From Limanda limanda (lineage: Eukaryota > Chordata > Actinopteri > Pleuronectiformes > Pleuronectidae), in assembly GCF_963576545.1 (NCBI RefSeq), contig NW_026870603.1, forward strand, positions 434,001-498,000: a stretch of 64,000 nucleotides of DNA, in the 5' to 3' direction. The position numbers and the translations under genes were made by a program. Numbering within the stretch: the stretch's first letter is position 1; each line of letters starts with the position of its first letter. The notes under the pieces are model-generated. The model was given only the letters and a program-made list of their open reading frames with translations, made no database searches and was not told the DNA's origin. Below are positions 1 through 64,000 of this stretch, one piece after another.

Positions 1-119
1 GGATCGATTGGTACCATCCCCGAGCTTGTACGACCTTCGGAAGAGGTCGACTGACGAAATTCCCCCAAATCTGAGGAGATATTCTTGAATAACTTTTTTT
101 GTGAAGGTCGGAGAGACTT
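1..119 (+). repeat. Partial B monomer at left edge (offsets 37-155)
   Basis: The window opens at offset 37 of a B unit. It carries the C88T marker (GACTGACG), as do the B units at 2372, 3986, 5755, 7687, 9456, 11388 and 61728. The following A at 120 carries G37A and G46A exactly like the A at 5910 that follows the B at 5755. The left edge therefore sits at the same phase of the HOR as position 5791. Confidence 0.95.
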
Positions 120-293
120 GCAAGTAGGCTCTACCCCCACTAAATGGGGTTGCGCACATCGATCAGTACCATCCTTGAGCTTCTCCGACTTTCGGAAGGG
201 TTAGGGTTAGGGTTAGGGATGAAAGCACATAGGAGAAAGAGATATTCTTGAATAACTTTTTTTGTGAAGGTCGGAGAGACTTGCAAGTAGGCT

Positions 294-315
294 CTACCCC
301 CACTAAATGGGGTAG
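294..315 (+). other. Representative inverted repeat in A monomer (7-bp stem, 8-nt loop)
   Basis: CTACCCC at 294-300 and GGGGTAG at 309-315 are perfect reverse complements around CACTAAAT. The stem is intact in A units with A at offset 32 and loses one pair in A32T units (GGGGTTG). B units do not have it. It could form a cruciform or an RNA hairpin; no function is shown. Confidence 0.75.
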
Positions 316-360
316 CGCGCATCGATCGGTACCATCCTTGAGCTTCTCCGACTTTCGGAA

Positions 361-381
361 GGGTTAGGGTTAGGGTTAGGG
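361..381 (+). other. Representative G-quadruplex motif, GGG(TTAGGG)3, in A monomer
   Basis: Four G3 tracts separated by TTA loops match the minimal vertebrate-telomere intramolecular quadruplex pattern. It sits at offsets 79-99 of every 163-bp A and of the three hybrids. By my count about 255 units keep all four tracts; nine lose the first tract by a point change (22445, 36231 and the seven G81A units). The 157-bp A units have three tracts and B units none. Folding is inferred from known telomere chemistry, not shown by sequence. Confidence 0.85.
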
Positions 382-401
382 ATGAAAGCACATAGGAGAA
401 A

Positions 402-445
402 GAGATATTCTTGAATAACTTTTTTTGTGAAGGTCGGAGAGACTT
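402..445 (+). other. Representative 44-bp 3' block shared by A and B
   Basis: The last 44 bases of A (offsets 120-163) and of B (offsets 112-155) are the same in the consensus, from GAGATATTC through the T7 tract to AGAGACTT. By contrast the left 79 bases are only 56 of 79 identical. The block recurs in all 398 complete monomers with few changes. It may be a protein-binding or nucleosome-phasing element, or a hot spot of exchange between the two families. Confidence 0.85.
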
Positions 446-765
446 GCAAGTAGGCTCTACCCCCACTAAATGGGGTAGCGCGCATCGATCGGTACCATCC
501 TTGAGCTTCTCCGACTTTCGGAAGGGTTAGGGTTAGGGATGAAAGCACATAGGAGAAAGAGATATTCTTGAATAACTTTTTTTGTGAAGGTCGGAGAGAC
601 TTGCAAGTAGGCTCTACCCCCACTAAATGGGGTTGCGCGCATCGATCGGTAGCATCCTTGAGCTTCTCCGACTTTCGGAAGGGTTAGGGTTAGGGTTAGG
701 GATGAAAGCACATAGGAGAAAGAGATATTCTTGAATAACTTTTTTTGTGAAGGTCGGAGAGACTT

Positions 766-920
766 GGAAAGTGGTTGCATCTGGACTAATTTGGGTCCTG
801 CGGATCGATTGGTACCATCCCCGAGCTTGTACGACCTTCGGAAGAGGTCGACCGACGAAATTCCCCCAAATCTGAGGAGATATTCTTGAATAACTTTTTT
901 TGTGAAGGTCGGAGAGACTT
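766..920 (+). repeat. Reference B monomer, 155 bp, without TTAGGG
   Basis: This is the second monomer family. Offsets 1-79 are 56 of 79 identical to A with no gap, and offsets 112-155 equal the A 3' block. In between, B has no telomere-type repeat; it carries AGGTCGACCGACG and a C5 run instead. ATCGAT and GGTACC sites are kept, while CGATCG is lost (CGATTG). GC is 74 of 155. The simplest reading is that A and B descend from one ancestral unit and that the A lineage acquired a TTAGGG block, but loss from B is equally possible from this window alone. Confidence 0.96.
846..853 (+). other. Representative GGTCGACC palindrome in B monomer
   Basis: This 8-bp perfect palindrome at B offsets 81-88 contains a GTCGAC site and lies where A has its TTAGGG block. 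The C88T B units (2372, 3986, 5755, 7687, 9456, 11388, 61728 and the left-edge fragment) lose the palindrome symmetry but keep GTCGAC. Confidence 0.8.
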
Positions 921-1564
921 GCAAGTAGGCTCTACCCCCACTAAATGGGGTTGCGCGCATCGATCGGTACCATCCTTGAGCTTCTCCGACTTTCGTAAGG
1001 GTTAGGGTTAGGGTTAGGGATGAAAGCACATAGGAGAAAGAGATATTCTTGAATAACTTTTTTTGTGAAGGTCGGAGAGACTTGCAAGTAGGCTCTACCC
1101 CCACTAAATGGGGTAGCGCGCATCGATCGGTACCATCCTTGAGCTTCTCCGACTTTCGGAAGGGTTAGGGTTAGGGTTAGGGATGAAAGCACATAGGAGA
1201 AAGAGATATTCTTGAATAACTTTTTTTGTGAAGGTCGGAGAGACTTGGAAAGTGGTTGCATCTGGACTAATTTGGGTCCTGCGGATCGATTGGTACCATC
1301 CCCGAGCTTGTACGACCTTCGGAAGAGGTCGACCGACGAAATTCCCCCAAATCTGAGGAGATATTCTTGAATAACTTTTTTTGTGAAGGTCGGAGAGACT
1401 TGCAAGTAGGCTCTACCCCCACTAAATGGGGTAGCGCGCATCGATCGGTACCATCCTTGAGCTTCTCCGACTTTCGGAAGGGTTAGGGTTAGGGTTAGGG
1501 ATGAAAGCACATAGGAGAAAGAGATATTCTTGAATAACTTTTTTTGTGAAGGTCGGAGAGACTT

Positions 1565-1727
1565 GGAAAGTGGTTGCATCTGGACTAATTTGGGTCCTGC
1601 GGATCGATTGGTACCATCCCCGAGCTTGTACGACCTTCGGAAGGGTTAGGGTTAGGGTTAGGGATGAAAGCACATAGGAGAAAGAGATATTCTTGAATAA
1701 CTTTTTTTGTGAAGGTCGGAGAGACTT
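1565..1727 (+). repeat. Hybrid monomer H1, B left half joined to A right half
   Basis: Offsets 1-79 match B (GGAAAG start, TTGGTACC and the B version of the following bases), then the unit continues as A with GGG(TTAGGG)3. The switch lies in the TTCGGAAG shared by both parents at 1636-1643. Length is 163 as expected for an in-register exchange. A normal B follows directly, so two B-like left halves lie side by side, which happens nowhere outside H1. Confidence 0.95.
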
Positions 1728-3178
1728 GGAAAGTGGTTGCATCTGGACTAATTTGGGTCCTGCGGATCGATTGGTACCATCCCCGAGCTTGTACGACCTT
1801 CGGAAGAGGTCGACCGACGAAATTCCCCCAAATCTGAGGAGATATTCTTGAATAACTTTTTTTGTGAAGGTCGGAGAGACTTGCAAGTAGGCTCTACCCC
1901 CACTAAATGGGGTTGCGCGCATCGATCAGTACCATCCTTGAGCTTCTCCGACTTTCGGAAGGGTTAGGGTTAGGGTTAGGGATGAAAGCACATAGGAGAA
2001 AGAGATATTCTTGAATAACTTTTTTTGTGAAGGTCGGAGAGACTTGCAAGTAGGCTCTACCCCCACTAAATGGGGTTGCGCGCATCGATCGGTACCATCC
2101 TTGAGCTTCTCCGACTTTCGGAAGGGTTAGGGTTAGGGTTAGGGATGAAAGCACATAGGAGAAAGAGATATTCTTGAATAACTTTTTTTGTGAAGGTCGG
2201 AGAGACTTGCAAGTAGGCTCTACCCCCACTAAATGGGGTAGCGCGCATCGATCGGTACCATCCTTGAGCTTCTCCGACTTTCGGAAGGGTTAGGGTTAGG
2301 GTTAGGGATGAAAGCACATAGGAGAAAGAGATATTCTTGAATAACGTTTTTTGTGAAGGTCGGAGAGACTTGGAAAGTGGTTGCATCTGGACTAATTTGG
2401 GTCCTGCGGATCGATTGGTACCATCCCCGAGCTTGTACGACCTTCGGAAGAGGTCGACTGACGAAATTCCCCCAAATCTGAGGAGATATTCTTGAATAAC
2501 TTTTTTTGTGAAGGTCGGAGAGACTTGCAAGTAGGCTCTACCCCCACTAAATGGGGTTGCGCGCATCGATCAGTACCATCCTTGAGCTTCTCCGACTTTC
2601 GGAAGGGTTAGGGTTAGGGTTAGGGATGAAAGCACATAGGAGAAAGAGATATTCTTGAATAACTTTTTTTGTGAAGGTCGGAGAGACTTGCAAGTAGGCT
2701 CTACCCCCACTAAATGGGGTAGCGCGCATCGATCGGTACCATCCTTGAGCTTCTCCGACTTTCGGAAGGGTTAGGGTTAGGGTTAGGGATGAAAGCACAT
2801 AGGAGAAAGAGATATTCTTGAATAACTTTTTTTGTGAAGGTCGGAGAGACTTGCAAGTAGGCTCTACCCCCACTAAATGGGGTAGCGCGCATCGATCGGT
2901 ACCATCCTTGAGCTTCTCCGACTTTCGGAAGGGTTAGGGTTAGGGTTAGGGATGAAAGCACATAGGAGAAAGAGATATTCTTGAATAACTTTTTTTGTGA
3001 AGGTCGGAGAGACTTGCAAGTAGGCTCTACCCCCACTAAATGGGGTAGCGCGCATCGATCGGTACCATCCTTGAGCTTCTCCGACTTTCGGAAGGGTTAG
3101 GGTTAGGGTTAGGGATGAAAGCACATAGGAGAAAGAGATATTCTTGAATAACTTTTTTTGTGAAGGTCGGAGAGACTT
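1565..3178 (+). repeat. 1,614-bp 10-mer HOR, copy 1 (starts with hybrid H1)
   Basis: Order: hybrid 1565, B 1728, A 1883 (G46A), A 2046, A 2209 (T138G), B 2372 (C88T), A 2527 (G46A), A 2690, A 2853, A 3016. The next hybrid starts exactly 1,614 bp later at 3179. The markers of monomers 1-9 agree between the two copies in order and position. Confidence 0.93.
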
Positions 3179-3341
3179 GGAAAGTGGTTGCATCTGGACT
3201 AATTTGGGTCCTGCGGATCGATTGGTACCATCCCCGAGCTTGTACGACCTTCGGAAGGGTTAGGGTTAGGGTTAGGGATGAAAGCACATAGGAGAAAGAG
3301 ATATTCTTGAATAACTTTTTTTGTGAAGGTCGGAGAGACTT
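3179..3341 (+). repeat. Hybrid monomer H1, second copy
   Basis: Same structure and same switch interval as the unit at 1565, 1,614 bp upstream. It is again followed by a normal B at 3342. The two are copies made by HOR duplication, not two independent exchanges, because their flanking monomers match too. Confidence 0.95.
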
Positions 3342-4792
3342 GGAAAGTGGTTGCATCTGGACTAATTTGGGTCCTGCGGATCGATTGGTACCATCCCCGA
3401 GCTTGTACGACCTTCGGAAGAGGTCGACCGACGAAATTCCCCCAAATCTGAGGAGATATTCTTGAATAACTTTTTTTGTGAAGGTCGGAGAGACTTGCAA
3501 GTAGGCTCTACCCCCACTAAATGGGGTTGCGCGCATCGATCAGTACCATCCTTGAGCTTCTCCGACTTTCGGAAGGGTTAGGGTTAGGGTTAGGGATGAA
3601 AGCACATAGGAGAAAGAGATATTCTTGAATAACTTTTTTTGTGAAGGTCGGAGAGACTTGCAAGTAGGCTCTACCCCCACTAAATGGGGTTGCGCGCATC
3701 GATCGGTACCATCCTTGAGCTTCTCCGACTTTCGGAAGGGTTAGGGTTAGGGTTAGGGATGAAAGCACATAGGAGAAAGAGATATTCTTGAATAACTTTT
3801 TTTGTGAAGGTCGGAGAGACTTGCAAGTAGGCTCTACCCCCACTAAATGGGGTAGCGCGCATCGATCGGTACCATCCTTGAGCTTCTCCGACTTTCGGAA
3901 GGGTTAGGGTTAGGGTTAGGGATGAAAGCACATAGGAGAAAGAGATATTCTTGAATAACGTTTTTTGTGAAGGTCGGAGAGACTTGGAAAGTGGTTGCAT
4001 CTGGACTAATTTGGGTCCTGCGGATCGATTGGTACCATCCCCGAGCTTGTACGACCTTCGGAAGAGGTCGACTGACGAAATTCCCCCAAATCTGAGGAGA
4101 TATTCTTGAATAACTTTTTTTGTGAAGGTCGGAGAGACTTGCAAGTAGGCTCTACCCCCACTAAATGGGGTTGCGCGCATCGATCAGTACCATCCTTGAG
4201 CTTCTCCGACTTTCGGAAGGGTTAGGGTTAGGGTTAGGGATGAAAGCACATAGGAGAAAGAGATATTCTTGAATAACTTTTTTTGTGAAGGTCGGAGAGA
4301 CTTGCAAGTAGGCTCTACCCCCACTAAATGGGGTAGCGCGCATCGATCGGTACCATCCTTGAGCTTCTCCGACTTTCGGAAGGGTTAGGGTTAGGGTTAG
4401 GGATGAAAGCACATAGGAGAAAGAGATATTCTTGAATAACTTTTTTTGTGAAGGTCGGAGAGACTTGCAAGTAGGCTCTACCCCCACTAAATGGGGTAGC
4501 GCGCATCGATCGGTACCATCCTTGAGCTTCTCCGACTTTCGGAAGGGTTAGGGTTAGGGTTAGGGATGAAAGCACATAGGAGAAAGAGATATTCTTGAAT
4601 AACTTTTTTTGTGAAGGTCGGAGAGACTTGCAAGTAGGCTCTACCCCCACTAAATGGGGTTGCGCGCATCGATCGGTAGCATCTTTGAGCTTCTCCGACT
4701 TTCGGAAGGGTTAGGGTTAGGGTTAGGGATGAAAGCACATAGGAGAAAGAGATATTCTTGAATAACTTTTTTTGTGAAGGTCGGAGAGACTT
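3179..4792 (+). repeat. 1,614-bp 10-mer HOR, copy 2
   Basis: Order: hybrid 3179, B 3342, A 3497 (G46A), A 3660, A 3823 (T138G), B 3986 (C88T), A 4141 (G46A), A 4304, A 4467, A 4630. The last A is the C50G subtype, which is the first unit of the following 3,701-bp HOR, so the two repeat domains share this monomer. Confidence 0.93.
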
Positions 4793-7700
4793 GGAAAGTG
4801 GTTGCATCTGGACTAATTTGGGTCCTGCGGATCGATTGGTACCATCCCCGAGCTTGTACGACCTTCGGAAGAGGTCGACCGACGAAATTCCCCCAAATCT
4901 GAGGAGATATTCTTGAATAACTTTTTTTGTGAAGGTCGGAGAGACTTGCAAGTAGGCTCTACCCCCACTAAATGGGGTTGCGCGCATCGATCGGTACCAT
5001 CCTTGAGCTTCTCCGACTTTCGTAAGGGTTAGGGTTAGGGTTAGGGATGAAAGCACATAGGAGAAAGAGATATTCTTGAATAACTTTTTTTGTGAAGGTC
5101 GGAGAGACTTGCAAGTAGGCTCTACCCCCACTAAATGGGGTAGCGCGCATCGATCGGTACCATCCTTGAGCTTCTCCGACTTTCGGAAGGGTTAGGGTTA
5201 GGGTTAGGGATGAAAGCACATAGGAGAAAGAGATATTCTTGAATAACTTTTTTTGTGAAGGTCGGAGAGACTTGGAAAGTGGTTGCATCTGGACTAATTT
5301 GGGTCCTGCGGATCGATTGGTACCATCCCCGAGCTTGTACGACCTTCGGAAGAGGTCGACCGACGAAATTCCCCCAAATCTGAGGAGATATTCTTGAATA
5401 ACTTTTTTTGTGAAGGTCGGAGAGACTTGCAAGTAGGCTCTACCCCCACTAAATGGGGTTGCGCGCATCGATCAGTACCATCCTTGAGCTTCTCCGACTT
5501 TCGGAAGGGTTAGGGTTAGGGTTAGGGATGAAAGCACATAGGAGAAAGAGATATTCTTGAATAACTTTTTTTGTGAAGGTCGGAGAGACTTGCAAGTAGG
5601 CTCTACCCCCACTAAATGGGGTAGCGCACATCGATCGGTACCATCCTTGAGCTTCTCCGACTTTCGGAAGGGTTAGGGTTAGGGTTAGGGATGAAAGCAC
5701 ATAGGAGAAAGAGATATTCTTGAATAACGTTTTTTGTGAAGGTCGGAGAGACTTGGAAAGTGGTTGCATCTGGACTAATTTGGGTCCTGCGGATCGATTG
5801 GTACCATCCCCGAGCTTGTACGACCTTCGGAAGAGGTCGACTGACGAAATTCCCCCAAATCTGAGGAGATATTCTTGAATAACTTTTTTTGTGAAGGTCG
5901 GAGAGACTTGCAAGTAGGCTCTACCCCCACTAAATGGGGTTGCGCACATCGATCAGTACCATCCTTGAGCTTCTCCGACTTTCGGAAGGGTTAGGGTTAG
6001 GGTTAGGGATGAAAGCACATAGGAGAAAGAGATATTCTTGAATAACTTTTTTTGTGAAGGTCGGAGAGACTTGCAAGTAGGCTCTACCCCCACTAAATGG
6101 GGTAGCGCGCATCGATCGGTACCATCCTTGAGCTTCTCCGACTTTCGGAAGGGTTAGGGTTAGGGTTAGGGATGAAAGCACATAGGAGAAAGAGATATTC
6201 TTGAATAACTTTTTTTGTGAAGGTCGGAGAGACTTGCAAGTAGGCTCTACTCCCACTAAATGGGGTAGCGCGCATCGATCGGTACCATCCTTGAGCTTCT
6301 CCGACTTTCGGAAGGGTTAGGGTTAGGGTTAGGGATGAAAGCACATAGGAGAAAGAGATATTCTTGAATAACTTTTTTTGTGAAGGTCGGAGAGACTTGC
6401 AAGTAGGCTCTACCCCCACTAAATGGGGTTGCGCGCATCGATCGGTAGCATCCTTGAGCTTCTCCGACTTTCGGAAGGGTTAGGGTTAGGGTTAGGGATG
6501 AAAGCACATAGGAGAAAGAGATATTCTTGAATAACTTTTTTTGTGAAGGTCGGAGAGACTTGGAAAGTGGTTGCATCTGGACTAATTTGGGTCCTGCGGA
6601 TCGATTGGTACCATCCCCGAGCTTGTACGACCTTCGGAAGAGGTCGACCGACGAAATTCCCCCAAATCTGAGGAGATATTCTTGAATAACTTTTTTTGTG
6701 AAGGTCGGAGAGACTTGCAAGTAGGCTCTACCCCCACTAAATGGGGTTGCGCGCATCGATCGGTACCATCCTTGAGCTTCTCCGACTTTCGTAAGGGTTA
6801 GGGTTAGGGTTAGGGATGAAAGCACATAGGAGAAAGAGATATTCTTGAATAACTTTTTTTGTGAAGGTCGGAGAGACTTGCAAGTAGGCTCTACCCCCAC
6901 TAAATGGGGTAGCGCGCATCGATCGGTACCATCCTTGAGCTTCTCCGACTTTCGGAAGGGTTAGGGTTAGGGTTAGGGATGAAAGCACATAGGAGAAAGA
7001 GATATTCTTGAATAACTTTTTTTGTGAAGGTCGGAGAGACTTGGAAAGTGGTTGCATCTGGACTAATTTGGGTCCTGCGGATCGATTGGTACCATCCCCG
7101 AGCTTGTACGACCTTCGGAAGAGGTCGACCGACGAAATTCCCCCAAATCTGAGGAGATATTCTTGAATAACTTTTTTTGTGAAGGTCGGAGAGACTTGCA
7201 AGTAGGCTCTACCCCCACTAAATGGGGTTGCGCGCATCGATCAGTACCATCCTTGAGCTTCTCCGACTTTCGGAAGGGTTAGGGTTAGGGTTAGGGATGA
7301 AAGCACATAGGAGAAAGAGATATTCTTGAATAACTTTTTTTGTGAAGGTCGGAGAGACTTGCAAGTAGGCTCTACCCCCACTAAATGGGGTTGCGCGCAT
7401 CGATCGGTACCATCCTTGAGCTTCTCCGACTTTCGGAAGGGTTAGGGTTAGGGTTAGGGATGAAAGCACATAGGAGAAAGAGATATTCTTGAATAACTTT
7501 TTTTGTGAAGGTCGGAGAGACTTGCAAGTAGGCTCTACCCCCACTAAATGGGGTAGCGCGCATCGATCGGTACCATCCTTGAGCTTCTCCGACTTTCGGA
7601 AGGGTTAGGGTTAGGGTTAGGGATGAAAGCACATAGGAGAAAGAGATATTCTTGAATAACGTTTTTTGTGAAGGTCGGAGAGACTTGGAAAGTGGTTGCA

Positions 7701-8330
7701 TCTGGACTAATTTGGGTCCTGCGGATCGATTGGTACCATCCCCGAGCTTGTACGACCTTCGGAAGAGGTCGACTGACGAAATTCCCCCAAATCTGAGGAG
7801 ATATTCTTGAATAACTTTTTTTGTGAAGGTCGGAGAGACTTGCAAGTAGGCTCTACCCCCACTAAATGGGGTTGCGCGCATCGATCAGTACCATCCTTGA
7901 GCTTCTCCGACTTTCGGAAGGGTTAGGGTTAGGGTTAGGGATGAAAGCACATAGGAGAAAGAGATATTCTTGAATAACTTTTTTTGTGAAGGTCGGAGAG
8001 ACTTGCAAGTAGGCTCTACCCCCACTAAATGGGGTAGCGCGCATCGATCGGTACCATCCTTGAGCTTCTCCGACTTTCGGAAGGGTTAGGGTTAGGGTTA
8101 GGGATGAAAGCACATAGGAGAAAGAGATATTCTTGAATAACTTTTTTTGTGAAGGTCGGAGAGACTTGCAAGTAGGCTCTACCCCCACTAAATGGGGTAG
8201 CGCGCATCGATCGGTACCATCCTTGAGCTTCTCCGACTTTCGGAAGGGTTAGGGTTAGGGTTAGGGATGAAAGCACATAGGAGAAAGAGATATTCTTGAA
8301 TAACTTTTTTTGTGAAGGTCGGAGAGACTT
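4630..8330 (+). repeat. 3,701-bp HOR copy 1 (11-mer 4630-6398 plus 12-mer 6399-8330)
   Basis: The 11-mer is A 4630 (C50G), B 4793, A 4948 (G76T), A 5111, B 5274, A 5429 (G46A), A 5592 (T138G), B 5755 (C88T), A 5910 (G46A), A 6073, A 6236. The 12-mer is A 6399 (C50G), B 6562, A 6717 (G76T), A 6880, B 7043, A 7198 (G46A), A 7361, A 7524 (T138G), B 7687 (C88T), A 7842 (G46A), A 8005, A 8168. The only structural difference is one extra A (7361) in the 12-mer. All A units here are 163 bp. Confidence 0.95.
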
Positions 8331-11300
8331 GCAAGTAGGCTCTACCCCCACTAAATGGGGTTGCGCGCATCGATCGGTAGCATCCTTGAGCTTCTCCGAC
8401 TTTCGGAAGGGTTAGGGTTAGGGTTAGGGATGAAAGCACATAGGAGAAAGAGATATTCTTGAATAACTTTTTTTGTGAAGGTCGGAGAGACTTGGAAAGT
8501 GGTTGCATCTGGACTAATTTGGGTCCTGCGGATCGATTGGTACCATCCCCGAGCTTGTACGACCTTCGGAAGAGGTCGACCGACGAAATTCCCCCAAATC
8601 TGAGGAGATATTCTTGAATAACTTTTTTTGTGAAGGTCGGAGAGACTTGCAAGTAGGCTCTACCCCCACTAAATGGGGTTGCGCGCATCGATCGGTACCA
8701 TCCTTGAGCTTCTCCGACTTTCGTAAGGGTTAGGGTTAGGGTTAGGGATGAAAGCACATAGGAGAAAGAGATATTCTTGAATAACTTTTTTTGTGAAGGT
8801 CGGAGAGACTTGCAAGTAGGCTCTACCCCCACTAAATGGGGTAGCGCGCATCGATCGGTACCATCCTTGAGCTTCTCCGACTTTCGGAAGGGTTAGGGTT
8901 AGGGTTAGGGATGAAAGCACATAGGAGAAAGAGATATTCTTGAATAACTTTTTTTGTGAAGGTCGGAGAGACTTGGAAAGTGGTTGCATCTGGACTAATT
9001 TGGGTCCTGCGGATCGATTGGTACCATCCCCGAGCTTGTACGACCTTCGGAAGAGGTCGACCGACGAAATTCCCCCAAATCTGAGGAGATATTCTTGAAT
9101 AACTTTTTTTGTGAAGGTCGGAGAGACTTGCAAGTAGGCTCTACCCCCACTAAATGGGGTTGCGCGCATCGATCAGTACCATCCTTGAGCTTCTCCGACT
9201 TTCGGAAGGGTTAGGGTTAGGGTTAGGGATGAAAGCACATAGGAGAAAGAGATATTCTTGAATAACTTTTTTTGTGAAGGTCGGAGAGACTTGCAAGTAG
9301 GCTCTATCCCCACTAAATGGGGTAGCGCGCATCGATCGGTACCATCCTTGAGCTTCTCCGACTTTCGGAAGGGTTAGGGTTAGGGTTAGGGATGAAAGCA
9401 CATAGGAGAAAGAGATATTCTTGAATAACGTTTTTTGTGAAGGTCGGAGAGACTTGGAAAGTGGTTGCATCTGGACTAATTTGGGTCCTGCGGATCGATT
9501 GGTACCATCCCCGAGCTTGTACGACCTTCGGAAGAGGTCGACTGACGAAATTCCCCCAAATCTGAGGAGATATTCTTGAATAACTTTTTTTGTGAAGGTC
9601 GGAGAGACTTGCAAGTAGGCTCTACCCCCACTAAATGGGGTTGCGCGCATCGATCAGTACCATCCTTGAGCTTCTCCGACTTTCGGAAGGGTTAGGGTTA
9701 GGGTTAGGGATGAAAGCACATAGGAGAAAGAGATATTCTTGAATAACTTTTTTTGTGAAGGTCGGAGAGACTTGCAAGTAGGCTCTACCCCCACTAAATG
9801 GGGTAGCGCGCATCGATCGGTACCATCCTTGAGCTTCTTCGACTTTCGGAAGGGTTAGGGTTAGGGTTAGGGATGAAAGCACATAGGAGAAAGAGATATT
9901 CTTGAATAACTTTTTTTGTGAAGGTCGGAGAGACTTGCAAGTAGGCTCTACCCCCACTAAATGGGGTAGCGCGCATCGATCAGTACCATCCTTGAGCTTC
10001 TCCGACTTTCGGAAGGGTTAGGGTTAGGGTTAGGGATGAAAGCACATAGGAGAAAGAGATATTCTTGAATAACTTTTTTTGTGAAGGTCGGAGAGACTTG
10101 CAAGTAGGCTCTACCCCCACTAAATGGGGTTGCGCGCATCGATCGGTAGCATCCTTGAGCTTCTCCGACTTTCGGAAGGGTTAGGGTTAGGGTTAGGGAT
10201 GAAAGCACATAGGAGAAAGAGATATTCTTGAATAACTTTTTTTGTGAAGGTCGGAGAGACTTGGAAAGTGGTTGCATCTGGACTAATTTGGGTCCTGCGG
10301 ATCGATTGGTACCATCCCCGAGCTTGTACGACCTTCGGAAGAGGTCGACCGACGAAATTCCCCCAAATCTGAGGAGATATTCTTGAATAACTTTTTTTGT
10401 GAAGGTCGGAGAGACTTGCAAGTAGGCTCTACCCCCACTAAATGGGGTTGCGCGCATCGATCGGTACCATCCTTGAGCTTCTCCGACTTTCGTAAGGGTT
10501 AGGGTTAGGGTTAGGGATGAAAGCACATAGGAGAAAGAGATATTCTTGAATAACTTTTTTTGTGAAGGTCGGAGAGACTTGCAAGTAGGCTCTACCCCCA
10601 CTAAATGGGGTAGCGCGCATCGATCGGTACCATCCTTGAGCTTCTCCGACTTTCGGAAGGGTTAGGGTTAGGGTTAGGGATGAAAGCACATAGGAGAAAG
10701 AGATATTCTTGAATAACTTTTTTTGTGAAGGTCGGAGAGACTTGGAAAGTGGTTGCATCTGGACTAATTTGGGTCCTGCGGATCGATTGGTACCATCCCC
10801 GAGCTTGTACGACCTTCGGAAGAGGTCGACCGACGAAATTCCCCCAAATCTGAGGAGATATTCTTGAATAACTTTTTTTGTGAAGGTCGGAGAGACTTGC
10901 AAGTAGGCTCTACCCCCACTAAATGGGGTTGCGCGCATCGATCAGTACCATCCTTGAGCTTCTCCGACTTTCGGAAGGGTTAGGGTTAGGGTTAGGGATG
11001 AAAGCACATAGGAGAAAGAGATATTCTTGAATAACTTTTTTTGTGAAGGTCGGAGAGACTTGCAAGTAGGCTCTACCCCCACTAAATGGGGTTGCGCGCA
11101 TCGATCGGTACCATCCTTGAGCTTCTCCGACTTTCGGAAGGGTTAGGGTTAGGGTTAGGGATGAAAGCACATAGGAGAAAGAGATATTCTTGAATAACTT
11201 TTTTTGTGAAGGTCGGAGAGACTTGCAAGTAGGCTCTACCCCCACTAAATGGGGTAGCGCGCATCGATCGGTACCATCCTTGAGCTTCTCCGACTTTCGG

Positions 11301-12031
11301 AAGGGTTAGGGTTAGGGTTAGGGATGAAAGCACATAGGAGAAAGAGATATTCTTGAATAACGTTTTTTGTGAAGGTCGGAGAGACTTGGAAAGTGGTTGC
11401 ATCTGGACTAATTTGGGTCCTGCGGATCGATTGGTACCATCCCCGAGCTTGTACGACCTTCGGAAGAGGTCGACTGACGAAATTCCCCCAAATCTGAGGA
11501 GATATTCTTGAATAACTTTTTTTGTGAAGGTCGGAGAGACTTGCAAGTAGGCTCTACCCCCACTAAATGGGGTTGCGCGCATCGATCAGTACCATCCTTG
11601 AGCTTCTCCGACTTTCGGAAGGGTTAGGGTTAGGGTTAGGGATGAAAGCACATAGGAGAAAGAGATATTCTTGAATAACTTTTTTTGTGAAGGTCGGAGA
11701 GACTTGCAAGTAGGCTCTACCCCCACTAAATGGGGTAGCGCGCATCGATCGGTACCATCCTTGAGCTTCTCCGACTTTCGGAAGGGTTAGGGTTAGGGTT
11801 AGGGATGAAAGCACATAGGAGAAAGAGATATTCTTGAATAACTTTTTTTGTGAAGGTCGGAGAGACTTGCAAGTAGGCTCTACCCCCACTAAATGGGGTA
11901 GCGCGCATCGATCGGTACCATCCTTGAGCTTCTCCGACTTTCGGAAGGGTTAGGGTTAGGGTTAGGGATGAAAGCACATAGGAGAAAGAGATATTCTTGA
12001 ATAACTTTTTTTGTGAAGGTCGGAGAGACTT
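8331..12031 (+). repeat. 3,701-bp HOR copy 2 (11-mer 8331-10099 plus 12-mer 10100-12031)
   Basis: Starts: 8331 (C50G), B 8494, 8649 (G76T), 8812, B 8975, 9130, 9293 (T138G), B 9456 (C88T), 9611, 9774, 9937; then 10100 (C50G), B 10263, 10418 (G76T), 10581, B 10744, 10899, 11062, 11225 (T138G), B 11388 (C88T), 11543, 11706, 11869. The order equals copy 1 monomer for monomer. Private point changes separate the copies, for example at 9307 (CTATCC), 9838 (CTTCTTCG) and G46A at 9982. Confidence 0.95.
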
Positions 12032-12993
12032 GCAAGTAGGCTCTACCCCCACTAAATGGGGTTGCGCGCATCGATCGGTAGCATCCTTGAGCTTCTCCGA
12101 CTTTCGGAAGGGTTAGGGTTAGGGTTAGGGATGAAAGCACATAGGAGAAAGAGATATTCTTGAATAACTTTTTTTGTGAAGGTCGGAGAGACTTGGAAAG
12201 TGGTTGCATCTGGACTAATTTGGGTCCTGCGGATCGATTGGTACCATCCCCGAGCTTGTACGACCTTCGGAAGAGGTCGACCGACGAAATTCCCCCAAAT
12301 CTGAGGAGATATTCTTGAATAACTTTTTTTGTGAAGGTCGGAGAGACTTGCAAGTAGGCTCTACCCCCACTAAATGGGGTTGCGCGCATCGATCGGTACC
12401 ATCCTTGAGCTTCTCCGACTTTCGTAAGGGTTAGGGTTAGGGTTAGGGATGAAAGCACATAGGAGAAAGAGATATTCTTGAATAACTTTTTTTGTGAAGG
12501 TCGGAGAGACTTGCAAGTAGGCTCTACCCCCACTAAATGGGGTAGCGCGCATCGATCGGTACCATCCTTGAGCTTCTCCGACTTTCGGAAGGGTTAGGGT
12601 TAGGGTTAGGGATGAAAGCACATAGGAGAAAGAGATATTCTTGAATAACTTTTTTTGTGAAGGTCGGAGAGACTTGGAAAGTGGTTGCATCTGGACTAAT
12701 TTGGGTCCTGCGGATCGATTGGTACCATCCCCGAGCTTGTACGACCTTCGGAAGAGGTCGACCGACGAAATTCCCCCAAATCTGAGGAGATATTCTTGAA
12801 TAACTTTTTTTGTGAAGGTCGGAGAGACTTGCAAGTAGGCTTTACCCCCACTAAATGGGGTTGCGCGCATCGATCAGTACCATCCTTGAGCTTCTCCGAC
12901 TTTCGGAAGGGTTAGGGTTAGGGTTAGGGATGAAAGCACATAGGAGAAAGAGATATTCTTGAATAACTTTTTTTGTGAAGGTCGGAGAGACTT
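12032..12993 (+). repeat. Truncated third start of the 3,701-bp HOR
   Basis: A 12032 (C50G), B 12195, A 12350 (G76T), A 12513, B 12676 and A 12831 (G46A, plus C12T) repeat the first six units of the 11-mer or 12-mer. The next A (12994) is plain and the T138G unit and C88T B do not follow, so the regular HOR domain ends here. Confidence 0.9.
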
Positions 12994-29494: not shown

Positions 29495-31895
29495 GCAAGT
29501 AGGCTCTACCCCCACTAAATGGGGTTGCGCGCATCGATCAGTACCATCCTTGAGCTTCTCCGACTTTCGGAAGGGTTAGGGTTAGGGTTAGGGATGAAAG
29601 CACATAGGAGAAAGAGATATTCTTGAATAACTTTTTTTGTGAAGGTCGGAGAGACTTGCAAGTAGGCTCTACCCCCACTAAATGGGGTAGCGCGCATCGA
29701 TCGGTACCATCCTTGAGCTTCTCCGACTTTCGGAAGGGTTAGGGTTAGGGTTAGGGATGAAAGCACATAGGAGAAAGAGATATTCTTGAATAACTTTTTT
29801 TGTGAAGGTCGGAGAGACTTGCAAGTAGGCTCTACCCCCACTAAATGGGGTAGCGCGCATCGATCGGTACCATCCTTGAGCTTCTCCGACTTTCGGAAGG
29901 GTTAGGGTTAGGGTTAGGGATGAAAGCACATAGGAGAAAGAGATATTCTTGAATAACTTTTTTTGTGAAGGTCGGAGAGACTTGGAAAGTGGTTGCATCT
30001 GGACTAATTTGGGTCCTGCGGATCGATTGGTACCATCCCCGAGCTTGTACGACCTTCGGAAGAGGTCGACCGACGAAATTCCCCCAAATCTGAGGAGATA
30101 TTCTTGAATAACTTTTTTTGTGAAGGTCGGAGAGACTTGCAAGTAGGCTCTACCCCCACTAAATGGGGTTGTGCGCATCGATCGGTACCATCCTTGAGCT
30201 TCTCCGACTTTCGTAAGGGTTAGGGTTAGGGTTAGGGATGAAAGCACATAGGAGAAAGAGATATTCTTGAATAACTTTTTTTGTGAAGGTCGGAGAGACT
30301 TGCAAGTAGGCTCTACCCCCACTAAATGGGGTAGCGCGCATCGATCGGTACCATCGTTGAGCTTCTCCGACTTTCGGAAGGGTTAGGGTTAGGGTTAGGG
30401 ATGAAAGCACATAGGAGAAAGAGATATTCTTGAATAACTTTTTTTGTGAAGGTCGGAGAGACTTGGAAAGTGGTTGCATCTGGACTAATTTGGGTCCTGC
30501 GGATCGATTGGTACCATCCCCGAGCTTGTACGACCTTCGAAAGAGGTCGACCGACGAAATTCCCCCAAATCTGAGGAGATATTCTTGAATAACTTTTTTT
30601 GTGAAGGTCGGAGAGACTTGCAAGTAGGCTCTACCCCCACTAAATGGGGTAGCGCGCATCGATCGGTACCATCCTTGAGCTTCTCCGACTTTCGGAAGGG
30701 TTAGGGTTAGGGTTAGGGATGAAAGCACATAGGAGAAAGAGATATTCTTGAATAACTTTTTTTGTGAAGGTCGGAGAGACTTGGAAAGTGGTTGCATCTG
30801 GACTAATTTGGGTCCTGCGGATCGATTGGTACCATCCCCGAGCTTGTACGACCTTCGGAAGAGGTCGACCGACGAAATTCCCCCAAATCTGAGGAGATAT
30901 TCTTGAATAACTTTTTTTGTGAAGGTCGGAGAGACTTGCAAGTAGGCTCTACCCCCACTAAATGGGGTTGCGCGCATCGATCGGTACCATCCTTGAGCTT
31001 CTCCGACTTTCGTAAGGGTTAGGGTTAGGGTTAGGGATGAAAGCACATAGGAGAAAGAGATATTCTTGAATAACTTTTTTTGTGAAGGTCGGAGAGACTT
31101 GCAAGTAGGCTCTACCCCAACTAAATGGGGTAGCGCGCATCGATCAGTACCATCCTTGAGCTTCTCCGACTTTCGGAAGGGTTAGGGTTAGGGATGAAAG
31201 CACATAGGAGAAAGAGATATTCTTGAATAACTTTTTTTGTGAAGGTCGGAGAGACTTGCAAGTAGGCTCTACCCCCACTAAATGGGGTAGCGCGCATCGA
31301 TCGGTACCATCCTTGAGCTTCTCCGACTTTCGGAAGGGTTAGGGTTAGGGATGAAAGCACATAGGAGAAAGAGATATTCTTGAATAACTTTTTTTGTGAA
31401 GGTCGGAGAGACTTGGAAAGTGGTTGCATCTGGACTAATTTGGGTCCTGCGGATCGATTGGTACCATCCCCGAGCTTGTACGACCTTCGGAAGAGGTCGA
31501 CCGACGAAATTCCCCCAAATCTGAGGAGATATTCTTGAATAACTTTTTTTGTGAAGGTCGGAGAGACTTGCAAGTAGGCTCTACCCCCACTAAATGGGGT
31601 TGCGCGCATCGATCGGTACCATCCTTGAGCTTCTCCGACTTTCGTAAGGGTTAGGGTTAGGGTTAGGGATGAAAGCACATAGGAGAAAGAGATATTCTTG
31701 AATAACTTTTTTTGTGAAGGTCGGAGAGACTTGCAAGTAGGCTCTACCCCCACTAAATGGGGTAGCGCGCATCGATCGGTACCATCCTTGAGCTTCTCCG
31801 ACTTTCGGAAGGGTTAGGGTTAGGGTTAGGGATGAAAGCACATAGGAGAAAGAGATATTCTTGAATAACTTTTTTTGTGAAGGTCGGAGAGACTT
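28056..31895 (+). repeat. 3,840-bp HOR, copy 1
   Basis: Starts: A 28056 (157, G76T), 28213 (C55G), B 28376, A 28531, 28694, B 28857, A 29012 (G76T), 29175 (157, C19A, G145T), 29332, 29495 (G46A), 29658, 29821, B 29984, A 30139 (G76T, C34T), 30302 (C55G), B 30465 (G76A), A 30620, B 30783, A 30938 (G76T), 31101 (157, C19A), 31258 (157), B 31415, A 31570 (G76T), 31733. The first 20 monomers match 31896-35097 in order, with the total length equal despite 6-bp differences inside. Confidence 0.9.
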
Positions 31896-32058
31896 GGAAA
31901 GTAGTTGCATCTGGACTAATTTGGGTCCTGCGGATCGATCGGTACCATCCTTGAGCTTCTCCGACTTTCGTAAGGGTTAGGGTTAGGGTTAGGGATGAAA
32001 GCACATAGGAGAAAGAGATATTCTTGAATAACTTTTTTTGTGAAGGTCGGAGAGACTT
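31896..32058 (+). repeat. Hybrid monomer H2, B start joined to A body
   Basis: The first 44 or so bases are B (with one change, GTAGTTGC), then the unit becomes an A with G76T and GGG(TTAGGG)3. The switch lies in the ATCGAT shared by both parents at 31934-31939, about 30 offsets left of the H1 switch. Length is 163, so the exchange was in register. It occurs once in the window and appears to be independent of H1. Confidence 0.94.
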
Positions 32059-46953: not shown

Positions 46954-47110
46954 GCAAGTAGGCTCTACCCCCACTAAATGGGGTAGCGCGCATCGATCGG
47001 TACTATCCTTGAGCTTCTCCGACTTTCGGAAGGGTTAGGGTTAGGGATGAAAGCACATAGGAGAAAGAGATATTCTTGAATAACTTTTTTTGTGAAGGTC
47101 GGAGAGACTT
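46954..47110 (+). repeat. 157-bp A monomer at a HOR junction
   Basis: This A has two TTAGGG units and C51T (GGTACT). The matching place before the second 3,703-bp copy (50651) holds a 163-bp A without C51T, so the two copies differ here. Confidence 0.88.
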
Positions 47111-53800: not shown

Positions 53801-54035
53801 GGTTAGGGATGAAAGCACATAGGAGAAAGAGATATTCTTGAATAACTTTTTTTGTGAAGGTCGGAGAGACTTGCAAGTAGGCTCTACCCCCACTAAATGG
53901 GGTAGCGCGCATCGATCGGTACCATCCTTGAGCTTCTCCGACTTTCGGAAGGGTTAGGGTTAGGGTTAGGGATGAAAGCACATAGGAGAAAGAGATATTC
54001 TTGAATAACTTTTTTTGTGAAGGTCGGAGAGACTT
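50814..54035 (+). repeat. 3,703-bp HOR, copy 2, truncated
   Basis: Starts: A 50814, B 50977, A 51132 (G8A, G46A), 51295 (G37A), 51458 (C74T, G81A, G102T), 51621, 51784 (157), B 51941 (C51T, C36T), A 52096 (G46A), 52259, 52422, B 52585 (G149C), A 52740 (G8A), 52903, 53066, B 53229, A 53384 (G8A, G35A), 53547, 53710, 53873. Twenty monomers match copy 1 at exactly 3,703 bp. It then joins the second copy of the 2.2-kb block. Confidence 0.93.
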
Positions 54036-56261
54036 GGAAAGTGGTTGCATCTGGACTAATTTGGGTCCTGCGGATCGATTGGTACCATCCCCGAGCTTGT
54101 ACGACCTTCGAAAGAGGTCGACCGACGAAATTCCCCCAAATCTGAGGAGATATTCTTGAATAACTTTTTTTGTGAAGGTCGGAGAGACTTGCAAGTAGGC
54201 TCTACCCCCACTAAATGGGGTTGCGCGCATCGATCGGTACCATCCTTGAGCTTCTCCGACTTTCGTAAGGGTTAGGGTTAGGGTTAGGGATGAAAGCACA
54301 TAGGAGAAAGAGATATTCTTGAATAACTTTTTTTGTGAAGGTCGGAGAGACTTGCAAGTAGGCTCTACCCCCACTAAATGGGGTAGCGCGCATCGATCGG
54401 TACCATCCTTGAGCTTCTCCGACTTTCGGAAGGGTTAGGGTTAGGGATGAAAGCACATAGGAGAAAGAGATATTCTTGAATAACTTTTTTTGTGAAGGTC
54501 GGAGAGACTTGCAAGTAGGCTCTACCCCCACTAAATGGGGTAGCGCGCATCGATCGGTACCATCCTTGAGCTTCTCCGACTTTCGGAAGGGTTAGGGTTA
54601 GGGATGAAAGCACATAGGAGAAAGAGATATTCTTGAATAACTTTTTTTGTGAAGGTCGGAGAGACTTGCAAGTAGGCTCTACCCCCACTAAATGGGGTAG
54701 CGCGCATCGATCAGTACCATCCTTGAGCTTCTCCGACTTTCGGAAGGGTTAGGGTTAGGGTTAGGGATGAAAGCACATAGGAGAAAGAGATATTCTTGAA
54801 TAACTTTTTTTGTGAAGGTCGGAGAGACTTGGAAAGTGGTTGCATCTGGACTAATTTGGGTCCTGCGGATCGATTGGTACCATCCCCGAGCTTGTACGAC
54901 CTTCGGAAGAGGTCGACCGACGAAATTCCCCCAAATCTGAGGAGATATTCTTGAATAACTTTTTTTGTGAAGGTCGGAGAGACTTGCAAGTAGGCTCTAC
55001 CCCCACTAAATGGGGTAGCGCGCATCGATCGGTACCATCCTTGAGCTTCTCCGACTTTCGGAAGGGTTAGGGTTAGGGTTAGGGATGAAAGCACATAGGA
55101 GAAAGAGATATTCTTGAATAACTTTTTTTGTGAAGGTCGGAGAGACTTGGAAAGTGGTTGCATCTGGACTAATTTGGGTCCTGCGGATCGATTGGTACCA
55201 TCCCCGAGCTTGTACGACCTTCGGAAGAGGTCGACCGACGAAATTCCCCCAAATCTGAGGAGATATTCTTGAATAACTTTTTTTGTGAAGGTCGGAGAGA
55301 CTTGCAAGTAGGCTCTACCCCCACTAAATGGGGTAGCGCACATCGATCGGTACCATCCTTGAGCTTCTCCGACTTTCGGAAGGGTTAGGGTTAGGGTTAG
55401 GGATGAAAGCACATAGGAGAAAGAGATATTCTTGAATAACTTTTTTTGTGAAGGTCGGAGAGACTTGCAAGTAGGCTCTACCCCCACTAAATGGGGTAGC
55501 GCGCATCGATCGGTACCATCCTTGAGCTTCTCCGACTTTTGGAAGGATTAGGGTTAGGGTTAGGGATTAAAGCACATAGGAGAAAGAGATATTCTTGAAT
55601 AACTTTTTTTGTGAAGGTCGGAGAGACTTGCAAGTAGGCTCTACCCCCACTAAATAGGGTAGCGCGCATCGATCGGTACCATCCTTGAGCTTCTCCGACT
55701 TTCGGAAGGGTTAGGGTTAGGGATGAAAGCACATAGGAGAAAGAGATATTCTTGAATAACTTTTTTTGTGAAGGTCGGAGAGACTTGCAAGTAGGCTCTA
55801 CCCCCACTAAATGGGGTAGCGCACATCGATCGGTACCATCCTTGAGCTTCTCCGACTTTCGGAAGGGTTAGGGTTAGGGATGAAAGCACATAGGAGAAAG
55901 AGATATTCTTGAATAACTTTTTTTGTGAAGGTCGGAGAGACTTGGAAAGTGGTTGCATCTGGACTAATTTGGGTCCTGCGGATCGATTGGTACCATCCCC
56001 GAGCTTGTACGACCTTCGGAAGAGGTCGACCGACGAAATTCCCCCAAATCTGAGGAGATATTCTTGAATAACTTTTTTTGTGAAGGTCGGAGAGACTTGC
56101 AAGTAGGCTCTACCCCCACTAAATGGGGTTGCGCGCATCGATCAGTACCATCCTTGAGCTTTTCCGACTTTCGGAAGGGTTAGGGTTAGGGTTAGGGATG
56201 AAAGCACATAGGAGAAAGAGATATTCTTGAATAACTTTTTTTGTGAAGGTCGGAGAGACTT
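54036..56261 (+). repeat. 2.2-kb block, copy 2 of a pair 9.3 kb apart
   Basis: Starts: B 54036 (G76A), A 54191 (G76T), 54354 (157), 54511 (157), 54668 (G46A), B 54831, A 54986, B 55149, A 55304 (G37A), 55467 (C74T, G81A, G102T), 55630 (157, G27A), 55787 (157, G37A), B 55944, A 56099 (G46A). The 157-bp unit at 54511 is 163 bp in copy 1 (45197). The G76A of the first B also marks 36394 and 37988, which begin the same B, A(G76T), A(157) string. Confidence 0.93.
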
Positions 56262-60594: not shown

Positions 60595-61727
60595 GCAAGT
60601 AGGCTTTACCCCCACTAAATGGGGTAGCGCGCATCGATCGGTACCATCCTTGAGCTTCTCCGACTTTCGGAAGGGTTAGGGTTAGGGTTAGGGATGAAAG
60701 CACATAGGAGAAAGAGATATTCTTGAATAACTTTTTTTGTGAAGGTCGGAAAGACTTGCAAGTAGGCTCTACCCCCACTAAATGGGGTAGCGCGCATCGA
60801 TCGGTACCATCCTTGAGCTTCTCCGACTTTCGGAAGGGTTAGGGTTAGGGTTAGGGATGAAAGCACATAGGAGAAAGAGATATTCTTGAATAACTTTTTT
60901 TGTGAAGGTCGGAGAGACTTGCAAGTAGGCTCTACCCCCACTAAATGGGGTAGCGCGCATCGATCGGTACCATCCTTGAGCTTCTCCGACTTTCGGAAGG
61001 GTTAGGGTTAGGGTTAGGGATGAAAGCACATAGGAGAAAGAGATATTCTTGAATAACTTTTTTTGTGAAGGTCGGAGAGACTTGCAAGTAGGCTCTACCC
61101 CCACTAAATGGGGTAGCGCGCATCGATCGGTACCATCTTTGAGCTTCTCCGACTTTCGGAAGGGTTAGGGTTAGGGTTAGGGATGAAAGCACATAGGAGA
61201 AAGAGATATTCTTGAATAACTTTTTTTGTGAAGGTCGGAGAGACTTGGAAAGTGGTTGCATCTGGACTAATTTGGGTCCTGCGGATCGATTGGTACCATC
61301 CCCGAGCTTGTACGACCTTCGGAAGAGGTCGACCGACGAAATTCCCCCAAATCTGAGGAGATATTCTTGAATAACTTTTTTTGTGAAGGTCGGAGAGACT
61401 TGCAAGTAGGCTCTACCCCCACTAAATGGGGTAGCGCGCATCGATCGGTACCATCCTTGAGCTTCTCCGACTTTTGGAAGGGTTAGGGTTAGGGTTAGGG
61501 ATGAAAGCACATAGGAGAAAGAGATATTCTTGAATAACTTTTTTTGTGAAGGTCGGAGAGACTTGCAAGTAGGCTCTACCCCCACTAAATGGGGTAGCGC
61601 GCATCGATCGGTACCATCCTTGAGCTTCTCCGACTTTCGGAAGGGTTAGGGTTAGGGTTAGGGATGAAAGCACATAGGAGAAAGAGATATTCTTGAATAA
61701 CTTTTTTTGTGAAGGTCGGAGAGACTT
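60595..61727 (+). repeat. Source-like A-A-A trimer and flank
   Basis: A 60595 carries C12T and G157A together, then A 60758, 60921, 61084 (C55T), B 61247, A 61402 (C74T) and 61565. The C12T plus G157A unit occurs only here and at 62535 and 63024. The string from 60595 to the C74T unit is repeated at 63024-63993, 2,429 bp downstream. Confidence 0.94.
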
Positions 61728-64000
61728 GGAAAGTGGTTGCATCTGGCCTAATTTGGGTCCTGCGGATCGATTGGTACCATCCCCGAGCTTGTACGACCTT
61801 CGGAAGAGGTCGACTGACGAAATTCCCCCAAATCTGAGGAGATATTCTTGAATAACTTTTTTTGTGAAGGTCGGAGAGACTTGCAAGTAGGCTCTACCCC
61901 CACTAAATGGGGTTGCGCGCATCGATCAGTACCATCCTTGAGCTTCTCCGACTTTCGGAAGGGTTAGGGTTAGGGTTAGGGATGAAAGCACATAGGAGAA
62001 AGAGATATTCTTGAATAACTTTTTTTGTGAAGGTCGGAGAGACTTGCAAGTAGGCTCTACCCCCACTAAATGGGGTAGCGCGCATCGATCGGTACCATCC
62101 TTGAGCTTCTCCGACTTTCGGAAGGGTTAGGGTTAGGGTTAGGGATGAAAGCACATAGGAGAAAGAGATATTCTTGAATAACTTTTTTTGTGAAGGTCGG
62201 AGAGACTTGCAAGTAGGCTCTACCCCCACTAAATGGGGTAGCGCGCATCGATCGGTACCATCCTTGAGCTTCTCCGACTTTCGGAAGGGTTAGGGTTAGG
62301 GTTAGGGATGAAAGCACATAGGAGAAAGAGATATTCTTGAATAACTTTTTTTGTGAAGGTCGGAGAGACTTGCAAGTAGGCTCTACCCCCACTAAATGGG
62401 GTAGCGCGCATCGATCGGTACCATCCTTGAGCTTCTCCGACTTTCGGAAGGGTTAGGGTTAGGGTTAGGGATGAAAGCACATAGGAGAAAGAGATATTCT
62501 TGAATAACTTTTTTTGTGAAGGTCGGAGAGACTTGCAAGTAGGCTTTACCCCCACTAAATGGGGTAGCGCGCATCGATCGGTACCATCCTTGAGCTTCTC
62601 CGACTTTCGGAAGGGTTAGGGTTAGGGTTAGGGATGAAAGCACATAGGAGAAAGAGATATTCTTGAATAACTTTTTTTGTGAAGGTCGGAAAGACTTGCA
62701 AGTAGGCTCTACCCCCACTAAATGGGGTAGCGCGCATCGATCGGTACCATCCTTGAGCTTCTCCGACTTTCGGAAGGGTTAGGGTTAGGGTTAGGGATGA
62801 AAGCACATAGGAGAAAGAGATATTCTTGAATAACTTTTTTTGTGAAGGTCGGAGAGACTTGCAAGTAGGCTCTACCCCCACTAAATGGGGTAGCGCGCAT
62901 CGATCGGTACCATCCTTGAGCTTCTCCGACTTTCGGAAGGGTTAGGGTTAGGGTTAGGGATGAAAGCACATAGGAGAAAGAGATATTCTTGAATAACTTT
63001 TTTTGTGAAGGTCGGAGAGACTTGCAAGTAGGCTTTACCCCCACTAAATGGGGTAGCGCGCATCGATCGGTACCATCCTTGAGCTTCTCCGACTTTCGGA
63101 AGGGTTAGGGTTAGGGTTAGGGATGAAAGCACATAGGAGAAAGAGATATTCTTGAATAACTTTTTTTGTGAAGGTCGGAAAGACTTGCAAGTAGGCTCTA
63201 CCCCCACTAAATGGGGTAGCGCGCATCGATCGGTACCATCCTTGAGCTTCTCCGACTTTCGGAAGGGTTAGGGTTAGGGTTAGGGATGAAAGCACATAGG
63301 AGAAAGAGATATTCTTGAATAACTTTTTTTGTGAAGGTCGGAGAGACTTGCAAGTAGGCTCTACCCCCACTAAATGGGGTAGCGCGCATCGATCGGTACC
63401 ATCCTTGAGCTTCTCCGACTTTCGGAAGGGTTAGGGTTAGGGTTAGGGATGAAAGCACATAGGAGAAAGAGATATTCTTGAATAACTTTTTTTGTGAAGG
63501 TCGGAGAGACTTGCAAGTAGGCTCTACCCCCACTAAATGGGGTAGCGCGCATCGATCGGTACCATCTTTGAGCTTCTCCGACTTTCGGAAGGGTTAGGGT
63601 TAGGGTTAGGGATGAAAGCACATAGGAGAAAGAGATATTCTTGAATAACTTTTTTTGTGAAGGTCGGAGAGACTTGGAAAGTGGTTGCATCTGGACTAAT
63701 TTGGGTCCTGCGGATCGATTGGTACCATCCCCGAGCTTGTACGACCTTCGGAAGAGGTCGACCGACGAAATTCCCCCAAATCTGAGGAGATATTCTTGAA
63801 TAACTTTTTTTGTGAAGGTCGGAGAGACTTGCAAGTAGGCTCTACCCCCACTAAATGGGGTAGCGCGCATCGATCGGTACCATCCTTGAGCTTCTCCGAC
63901 TTTTGGAAGGGTTAGGGTTAGGGTTAGGGATGAAAGCACATAGGAGAAAGAGATATTCTTGAATAACTTTTTTTGTGAAGGTCGGAGAGACTTGCAAGTA
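61728..64000 (+). repeat. Right segment with expanded 489-bp A-A-A trimer
   Basis: B 61728 (C88T, plus TGGCCTAA), A 61883 (G46A), 62046, 62209, 62372, 62535 (C12T, G157A), 62698, 62861, 63024 (C12T, G157A), 63187, 63350, 63513 (C55T), B 63676, A 63831 (C74T), then seven bases of a further A from 63994. The trimer at 62535-63023 and the one at 63024-63512 follow each other directly. 61883-63675 is the longest B-free run, eleven A units. Confidence 0.94.

Follow-up and report, generated by a model that had tools for sequence, protein, structure and literature searches.

In a 64,000-nt stretch of Limanda limanda DNA (contig NW_026870603.1, positions 434,001 to 498,000), hereafter referred to as the window, TTAGGG units are built into the monomers of a satellite, within one of two interleaved classes only. 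The question raised by this locus is how a telomere motif came to sit in one class of monomers, and whether it is a working element or is carried along by the processes which shape the array.

Structure of the array

A single tandem array, reported by TRF in three rows with differing periods, spans positions 76 to 64,000. Bases 1 to 75 of the window belong to an incomplete B monomer and the final 51 bases to another incomplete monomer; satellite fills the whole window, and no array edge is found within its 64,000 nt. Monomers were delimited by cutting the window at the start of a core common to the two classes, A and B, which yielded 398 complete, near-identical monomers, arranged head to tail as in satellite DNA: 264 of 163 bp, 36 of 157 bp and 98 of 155 bp, corresponding to 84 distinct sequences. 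The class was set by the head sequence, and monomers joining a B head to an A tail were kept apart as chimeras. In this way 297 monomers (261 of 163 bp and 36 of 157 bp) were assigned to A, 98, of 155 bp, to B, and 3 were chimeras; an initial annotation of this DNA had given exactly the same figures of 297 A and 98 B. The basic elements are the following:

1..64000, plus strand: satellite array, complete monomers starting from base 76
76..238, plus strand: example of an A monomer of 163 bp, with three TTAGGG
402..558, plus strand: example of an A monomer of 157 bp, with two TTAGGG (36 such in the window)
722..876, plus strand: example of a B monomer of 155 bp, with zero TTAGGG (98 such in the window)
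76..120, plus strand: example copy of the 45-bp core (0/45 differences between the commonest A and B)
158..197, plus strand: second block common to A and B (6 of 40 positions differ)
198..218, plus strand: telomere block GGG(TTAGGG)3 of the first A monomer

When the commonest A and B monomers are compared, the first 45 bp show no differences, 17 out of 37 bases differ at monomer positions 45-81, and 6 out of 40 at positions 82-121, upstream of the block. The tail is 41 bp long in A and 32 bp in B, the former being made of GGG(TTAGGG)3 or GGG(TTAGGG)2 followed by 20 bp.

An Rfam search of the first 3 kb produced one sub-threshold match (E 0.77), which was put down to chance and not retained as an RNA family. 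The minus strand contains 190 ORFs of at least 100 aa, up to 320 aa in length, which were regarded as arising from the repeat itself and not as genes. ORFs derived from repeats in this way enter protein databases as unnamed products, and can be used as satellite bait.

The telomere motif

TTAGGG is found 862 times in the window, where about 860 had been estimated, and CCCTAA is never found, so that all units lie on one strand. The units form 300 tracts, 262 of three units and 38 of two, with no other lengths, and perfect 18-nt (TTAGGG)3 sites number 262 in 64 kb. TTAGGG is thus contained within 300 of the 398 monomers, a PaB6-like arrangement. The tract is present in all 297 A monomers, in the same place and orientation, as the initial annotation had claimed for its two or three TTAGGG, and in none of the 98 B monomers of 155 bp; such an exclusive placement in A cannot be chance. 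Just two intact units are retained in 2 of the 261 A-headed monomers of 163 bp. The general description of a satellite with a telomere motif built into one of two monomer classes is therefore borne out. The accompanying statement that B is free of TTAGGG holds for the 155-bp monomers, but not for three out of 101 B-headed monomers, the chimeras at 1521, 3135 and 31852, which bear three units by way of their A tail.

The sequences flanking the motif had been described as homologous between A and B. This is true upstream, where the 6 differences in 40 bp are found, and again over the opening 45 bp of the following monomer, which show no differences. It is not so for the intervening 20 bp downstream of the block, which do not align to the B tail above the level of shuffled sequences. 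With five versions of the A tail, alignments to the B tail were equalled by shuffles in fractions from 0.058 to 0.48 (5.8% when one unit is kept, and 13%, 21%, 28% and 48% for the others), and homology of the downstream flank accordingly lacks demonstration. The contrast between the classes is one between a 41-bp and a 32-bp tail, a clean TTAGGG insertion or deletion being not demonstrable.

Seven monomers of 163 bp, located within 39497-55553, constitute a sub-lineage having GGATTAGGG in place of GGGTTAGGG, with loss of the first G-run of the block.

Higher-order organization

Among the 397 junctions between monomers, 197 are of the A-A, 98 of the B-A and 96 of the A-B type, none is B-B, and 6 involve chimeras (two of them chimera-B). 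Under random order, the log10 P of observing no B-B junction is -13.97. The runs of A monomers found between B monomers or chimeras mostly contain 1 to 4 elements, the longest 11. A position-specific variant is also found: T at position 75 is present in 71 of the 98 A monomers directly following a B, versus 16 of 198 other A monomers, a count covering 296 of the 297 A, since the first one in the window, preceded by the partial B, was excluded. When first A monomers are split according to their next neighbour (97 of 98, the last one being excluded), T75 is found in 69 of the 84 followed by another A, and in 2 of the 13 with no further A behind them, which have a B on either side or precede a chimera. 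Given this enrichment, a B monomer, an A monomer with T75 and further A monomers form a higher-order unit, the length of which is variable.

The lack of B-B junctions and the position-specific A variants indicate that the 3:1 ratio is a matter of array architecture, and not the outcome of a race between free families: the proportion of A to B is set by higher-order units made of one B and 1 to 11 A. The proposal, made in the initial annotation, that the block was gained by A or lost by B and that A then became three times as common is left unsupported on this account, and also in view of a diverged relative, described below, which already has both tail types and a telomere-like block.

Exchange and homogenization

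Identical blocks recur along the array, 10 monomers at a distance of 1614 bp and 17 monomers at 3701 bp, and the chimeras mark exchanges between classes:

1358..4585, plus strand: 1614-bp tandem duplication of 10 monomers, the copies at 1358 and 2972 being identical
6355..12786, plus strand: 17 successive identical monomers (2731 bp), repeated, with copies at 6355 and 10056 (offset 3701 bp)
1521..1683, plus strand: chimera, B head and A tail with three TTAGGG, switch inside TTCGGAA
3135..3297, plus strand: chimera, copy identical to that at 1521, within the 1614-bp tandem duplicate
31852..32014, plus strand: separate chimera, B head and A tail with three TTAGGG, switch inside ATCGAT

Each copy of the duplication contains one of the two identical chimeras (1521 and 3135), which were therefore counted as one event; the switches from B to A are best counted as two, each falling inside 6-7 bp of common sequence. 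Monomers of this type would be the expected product of recombination between a B and the A following it, with deletion of one monomer length, and show that the telomere block can come to sit behind a B head. An A head was found in none of the 98 B-tailed monomers.

The frequency of non-consensus bases in A monomers of 163 bp is 0.20% in the tail, block included, 0.18% in the core and 1.14% in the middle, the last figure being inflated by a few common variants. In B monomers the core has 0.25%, the middle 0.33% and the tail 0.34%; in A monomers of 157 bp the values are, in this order, 0, 0.79 and 0%. Segregating sites, listed from core to tail, are 7/45, 10/37, 9/40 and 10/41 in the 163-bp A monomers and 4/45, 7/37, 7/40 and 5/33 in B. 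The A tail being about as variable as the core, the block is not marked as specially guarded.

The 45-bp core, which is the same in A and B, features the fewest segregating sites in both classes and is the part best kept in the diverged relative P0002. It holds TATTCTTGAATA, with inverted arms TATTC and GAATA, and a T run. The core is a better candidate for constraint than the block, although exchange across classes would equally keep it alike.

In the three monomer types taken together, which have sites in common, transitions affect 11/46 CpG, 4/19 CHG, 21/160 CHH and 5/250 A/T positions. This excess of C-to-T changes fits methylation, but a general bias equally well, and was not taken as proof of the former.

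Diverged relatives

An ORF antisense to the array, P0001, itself considered a noncoding by-product, was used as bait in a protein search, and found P0002 alone among the 7985 best-word candidates scored. P0002 is a product of 204 aa, translated from one 1087-bp contig labelled 'lgn', a label presumably referring to the Logan assemblies; it possibly comes from another species, or from an old copy within that of the window. A search with P0002 found the sequence itself and three unnamed Pleuronectes platessa products, P0003 to P0005, while a profile search with alignment A1 retrieved just two sequences, P0002 and P0003, which were already among its rows.

Two of the three P. platessa products match the monomers of the window, as expected of a pleuronectid repeat family: P0003 scores 82 with B and 74 with A, P0004 91 and 76, respectively, each exceeding 300 out of 300 shuffles. 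The third, P0005, was rejected as a relative of the satellite: its score with B is 40, 11 of 300 shuffles being as good, and the residues of P0002 to which it is similar (4-41) lie beyond the satellite portion. The similarity of P0003 and P0004 to the window covers the middle of the monomer and, in P0003, the core as well; a recognisable A or B tail is present in neither, and both are therefore uninformative on the telomere block.

P0002, read along the minus strand of the satellite, contains the head of a first segment, not clearly of either class, then a B-type tail and head (segment 2), and finally an A-type tail (segment 3); its first 60 residues have no match to the satellite. With the core excluded, the head of segment 1 scores 74 with A and 59 with B; its middle has 12/24 identities to each class, and its own tail is at the shuffle level. 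The head of segment 2, again without the core, scores 93 with B versus 52 with A, and its B-type tail 36, values which are reached by none of 300 shuffles. Segment 3 matches the A tail only (score 68, 0/300 shuffles). When residues 67-164 are aligned end to end, two B monomers in tandem score 319 and two A monomers 168 at most; from this large difference, B may occur beside B in relatives. Conserved residues amount to 13/15 and 12/14 in the core, 18/24 in the B middle (segment 2), 12/16 in the A tail and 7/14 in the B tail. The telomere part reads IPNPYLNP, against IPNPNPNP in the window, equal in length and at least two base changes away.

The occurrence in P0002 of both tail types and of a telomere-like block suggests that these predate the homogenised array; they would be older than the array seen here, as far as can be told from one diverged relative known as a translation. 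TTAGGG-bearing relatives of B, which the initial annotation had named as evidence against its view, were not found in these searches, and the readable B-type monomer of P0002 has a B-type tail.

In residues 1-45 of P0002, and in P0003 to P0005, the translation adjoins a differing repeat, with peptides of the ELFWGPNH / LLGAQ type and no match to the satellite. This neighbour is possibly an array edge, or part of a composite repeat.

Exact-pattern scans for relatives gave no matches in collections of viral contigs and genome contigs, nor did blastn of positions 76-560 of the window against plasmids. A search of viral contigs based on P0002 gave 5 pattern matches, none of which was confirmed, and sequence words of the array do not occur in the full-text papers searched.

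Origin and role of the telomere block

The window contains a tandem array built of higher-order units, with recent duplications and products of cross-class exchange. Taken together, it is probably a recently homogenised vertebrate higher-order satellite, in which an old telomere block is a passenger of unequal exchange. A single B monomer and the one to several A behind it would make up the repeating unit, the block being a long-standing, built-in component of the A tail. Expansion and contraction of the array through local duplication and unequal exchange would homogenise it and carry the block along, and the block would have no job of its own.

Two proposals on where the block came from are compatible with its being a passenger. 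Short interstitial telomeric sequences are known to arise at double-strand breaks. Insertion of telomere repeats during repair has been described in primates and rodents (PMC7215372, as far as its available text goes), and it is possible, although not the likelier course, that the block entered the A tail by telomerase- or repair-mediated insertion, A being subsequently amplified. The exact (TTAGGG)2-3 sequence, its single orientation and the lack of demonstrable homology between A and B tails speak for such an origin; however, the 20 bp after the block are likewise unalignable to B, so that insertion of pure hexamers fails to explain the tail, and P0002 has block and neighbour together, which places any insertion before that relative. 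Somewhat less plausible is a start as one GGTTAGGG, present by chance in a tail ancestral to both A and B and then extended by slippage. Two- and three-unit alleles do coexist, the former as 11 haplotypes among 36 monomers, and a hypothetical A tail with one unit aligns best to the B tail (shuffle fraction 0.058, compared to 0.13 with two units and 0.21 with three). This fraction is, however, non-significant and the best of five versions tried, no four-unit allele is found in 300 tracts, and at its closest 15-nt match the B tail resembles (TTAGGG)n no more than shuffles do (fraction 0.57). That the whole array is a degraded telomere or subtelomere, and hence an ordinary interstitial telomeric sequence, is very improbable: the motif and its restriction to one strand would agree with this, but the extended repeat run of such sequences is missing from the window, where the longest perfect tract has three units, there is one tract per repeat unit, and 98 of 398 units have none.

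A different role for the block would follow if the 163-bp A monomers acted as a spaced docking or replication-stalling platform, combining a minimal G-quadruplex with TRF-type sites, with B monomers as spacers. The shortest telomeric intramolecular G-quadruplex requires four G-runs in such spacing, and YTAGGGTTR is a TRF-type site. Counting the chimeras, 255 of the 264 163-bp monomers show the four-run pattern, which never occurs on the other strand. The figure of 255 may be read as a sign of selection and would then count against a passenger block; YTAGGGTTR sites number 562 in the window. In one run with RNA parameters and G-quadruplexes allowed, the tail with three units folds at -20.1 kcal/mol, compared to -2.6 with two units and -9.3 for the B tail, and the fact that 155-bp B monomers never lie side by side fits a spacer role; in alpha satellite, box-bearing and box-less monomers do alternate. 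Nevertheless, within the array the variability of the block-bearing tail is not below that of the core, the 36 monomers of 157 bp persist without a fourth G-run (pattern in 0/36), and the block of the diverged P0002 has at least two substitutions. A search for the CENP-B box (NTTCGNNNNANNCGGGN) in the window gave 8 hits, all with two mismatches, fewer than the 200 expected by shuffling, and a CENP-B-box satellite was rejected. We thus consider a functional platform unlikely, and more doubtful still that the telomere-type G-quadruplex or TRF-type site is a working element of higher-order units in which B monomers are motif-free spacers. Such an element, if real, would recruit telomere proteins at an internal site and steer replication or exchange there; the functional reading would be striking if binding were shown, the sites being predicted here from sequence. 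The block-less sister monomer of the same array offers an internal control for the effects of the block on binding and stability.

Comparison with known systems

Interstitial telomere signals are often taken as remnants of chromosome fusions. With 262 full-length matches to an 18-nt probe in 64 kb, an array of this kind could give a signal without any fusion or long telomere tract, and would be missed by assembly searches for long (TTAGGG)n runs. The telomere probe named in the study of PaB6, a satellite of the plant Prospero autumnale, is a (CCCTAA)3 PNA, and telomere PNA signals co-localise with PaB6 loci (PMC4273535, in its available text). The 262 sites and the PaB6 precedent lend support to the earlier suggestion that the present array is a plausible non-telomere source of interstitial telomere signal. 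In mussel, interstitial FISH signals without matching arrays in the assembly have been described, and the authors, in the part of the text available, point to assembly limits and to short or fragmented repeats (PMC12818792); a common cause with the present array is not claimed here.

According to its published description, on which the comparison is based, PaB6 shares with the present satellite the presence of TTAGGG units built into the monomer, so that this kind of satellite is already known. The 249-bp PaB6 monomer contains seven TTAGGG, single or paired and dispersed, and a 256-bp variant derives from a TTAGGG insertion (PMC4273535); in L. limanda, by contrast, the motif belongs to one of the two interleaved classes, as a single tract of two or three units at a fixed position, and no motif-free sister class is mentioned in the available description of PaB6. 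The array resembles heterochromatic interstitial telomeric sequences (het-ITS) in placing bulk telomere hexamers away from the telomere, if the present locus is internal, but het-ITS are described as large blocks of telomere repeats (PMC6410037, available text), whereas here at most three units lie in a row. Similarly, chicken centromere cores combine telomere repeats with higher-order satellite, although, in the accessible part of the report, a (TTAGGG)n stretch is embedded within CNM arrays on seven chromosomes, not in each monomer (PMC9974502).

As far as the accessible parts of the sources go, a paper on the marbled flounder T2T assembly gives no satellite sequence and one on a skink no built-in telomere motif. 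Within the accessible open-licence literature, neither a flatfish satellite with built-in TTAGGG nor a two-class higher-order design with one fixed TTAGGG tract was found.

Alpha satellite is organized in higher-order units with two monomer classes, one of which has the CENP-B box at a fixed place. The array described here differs in having no CENP-B box, and in that no binding protein is known for its motif; it shares with alpha satellite the design of two classes arranged in higher-order units, one of them carrying a short motif at a fixed place.
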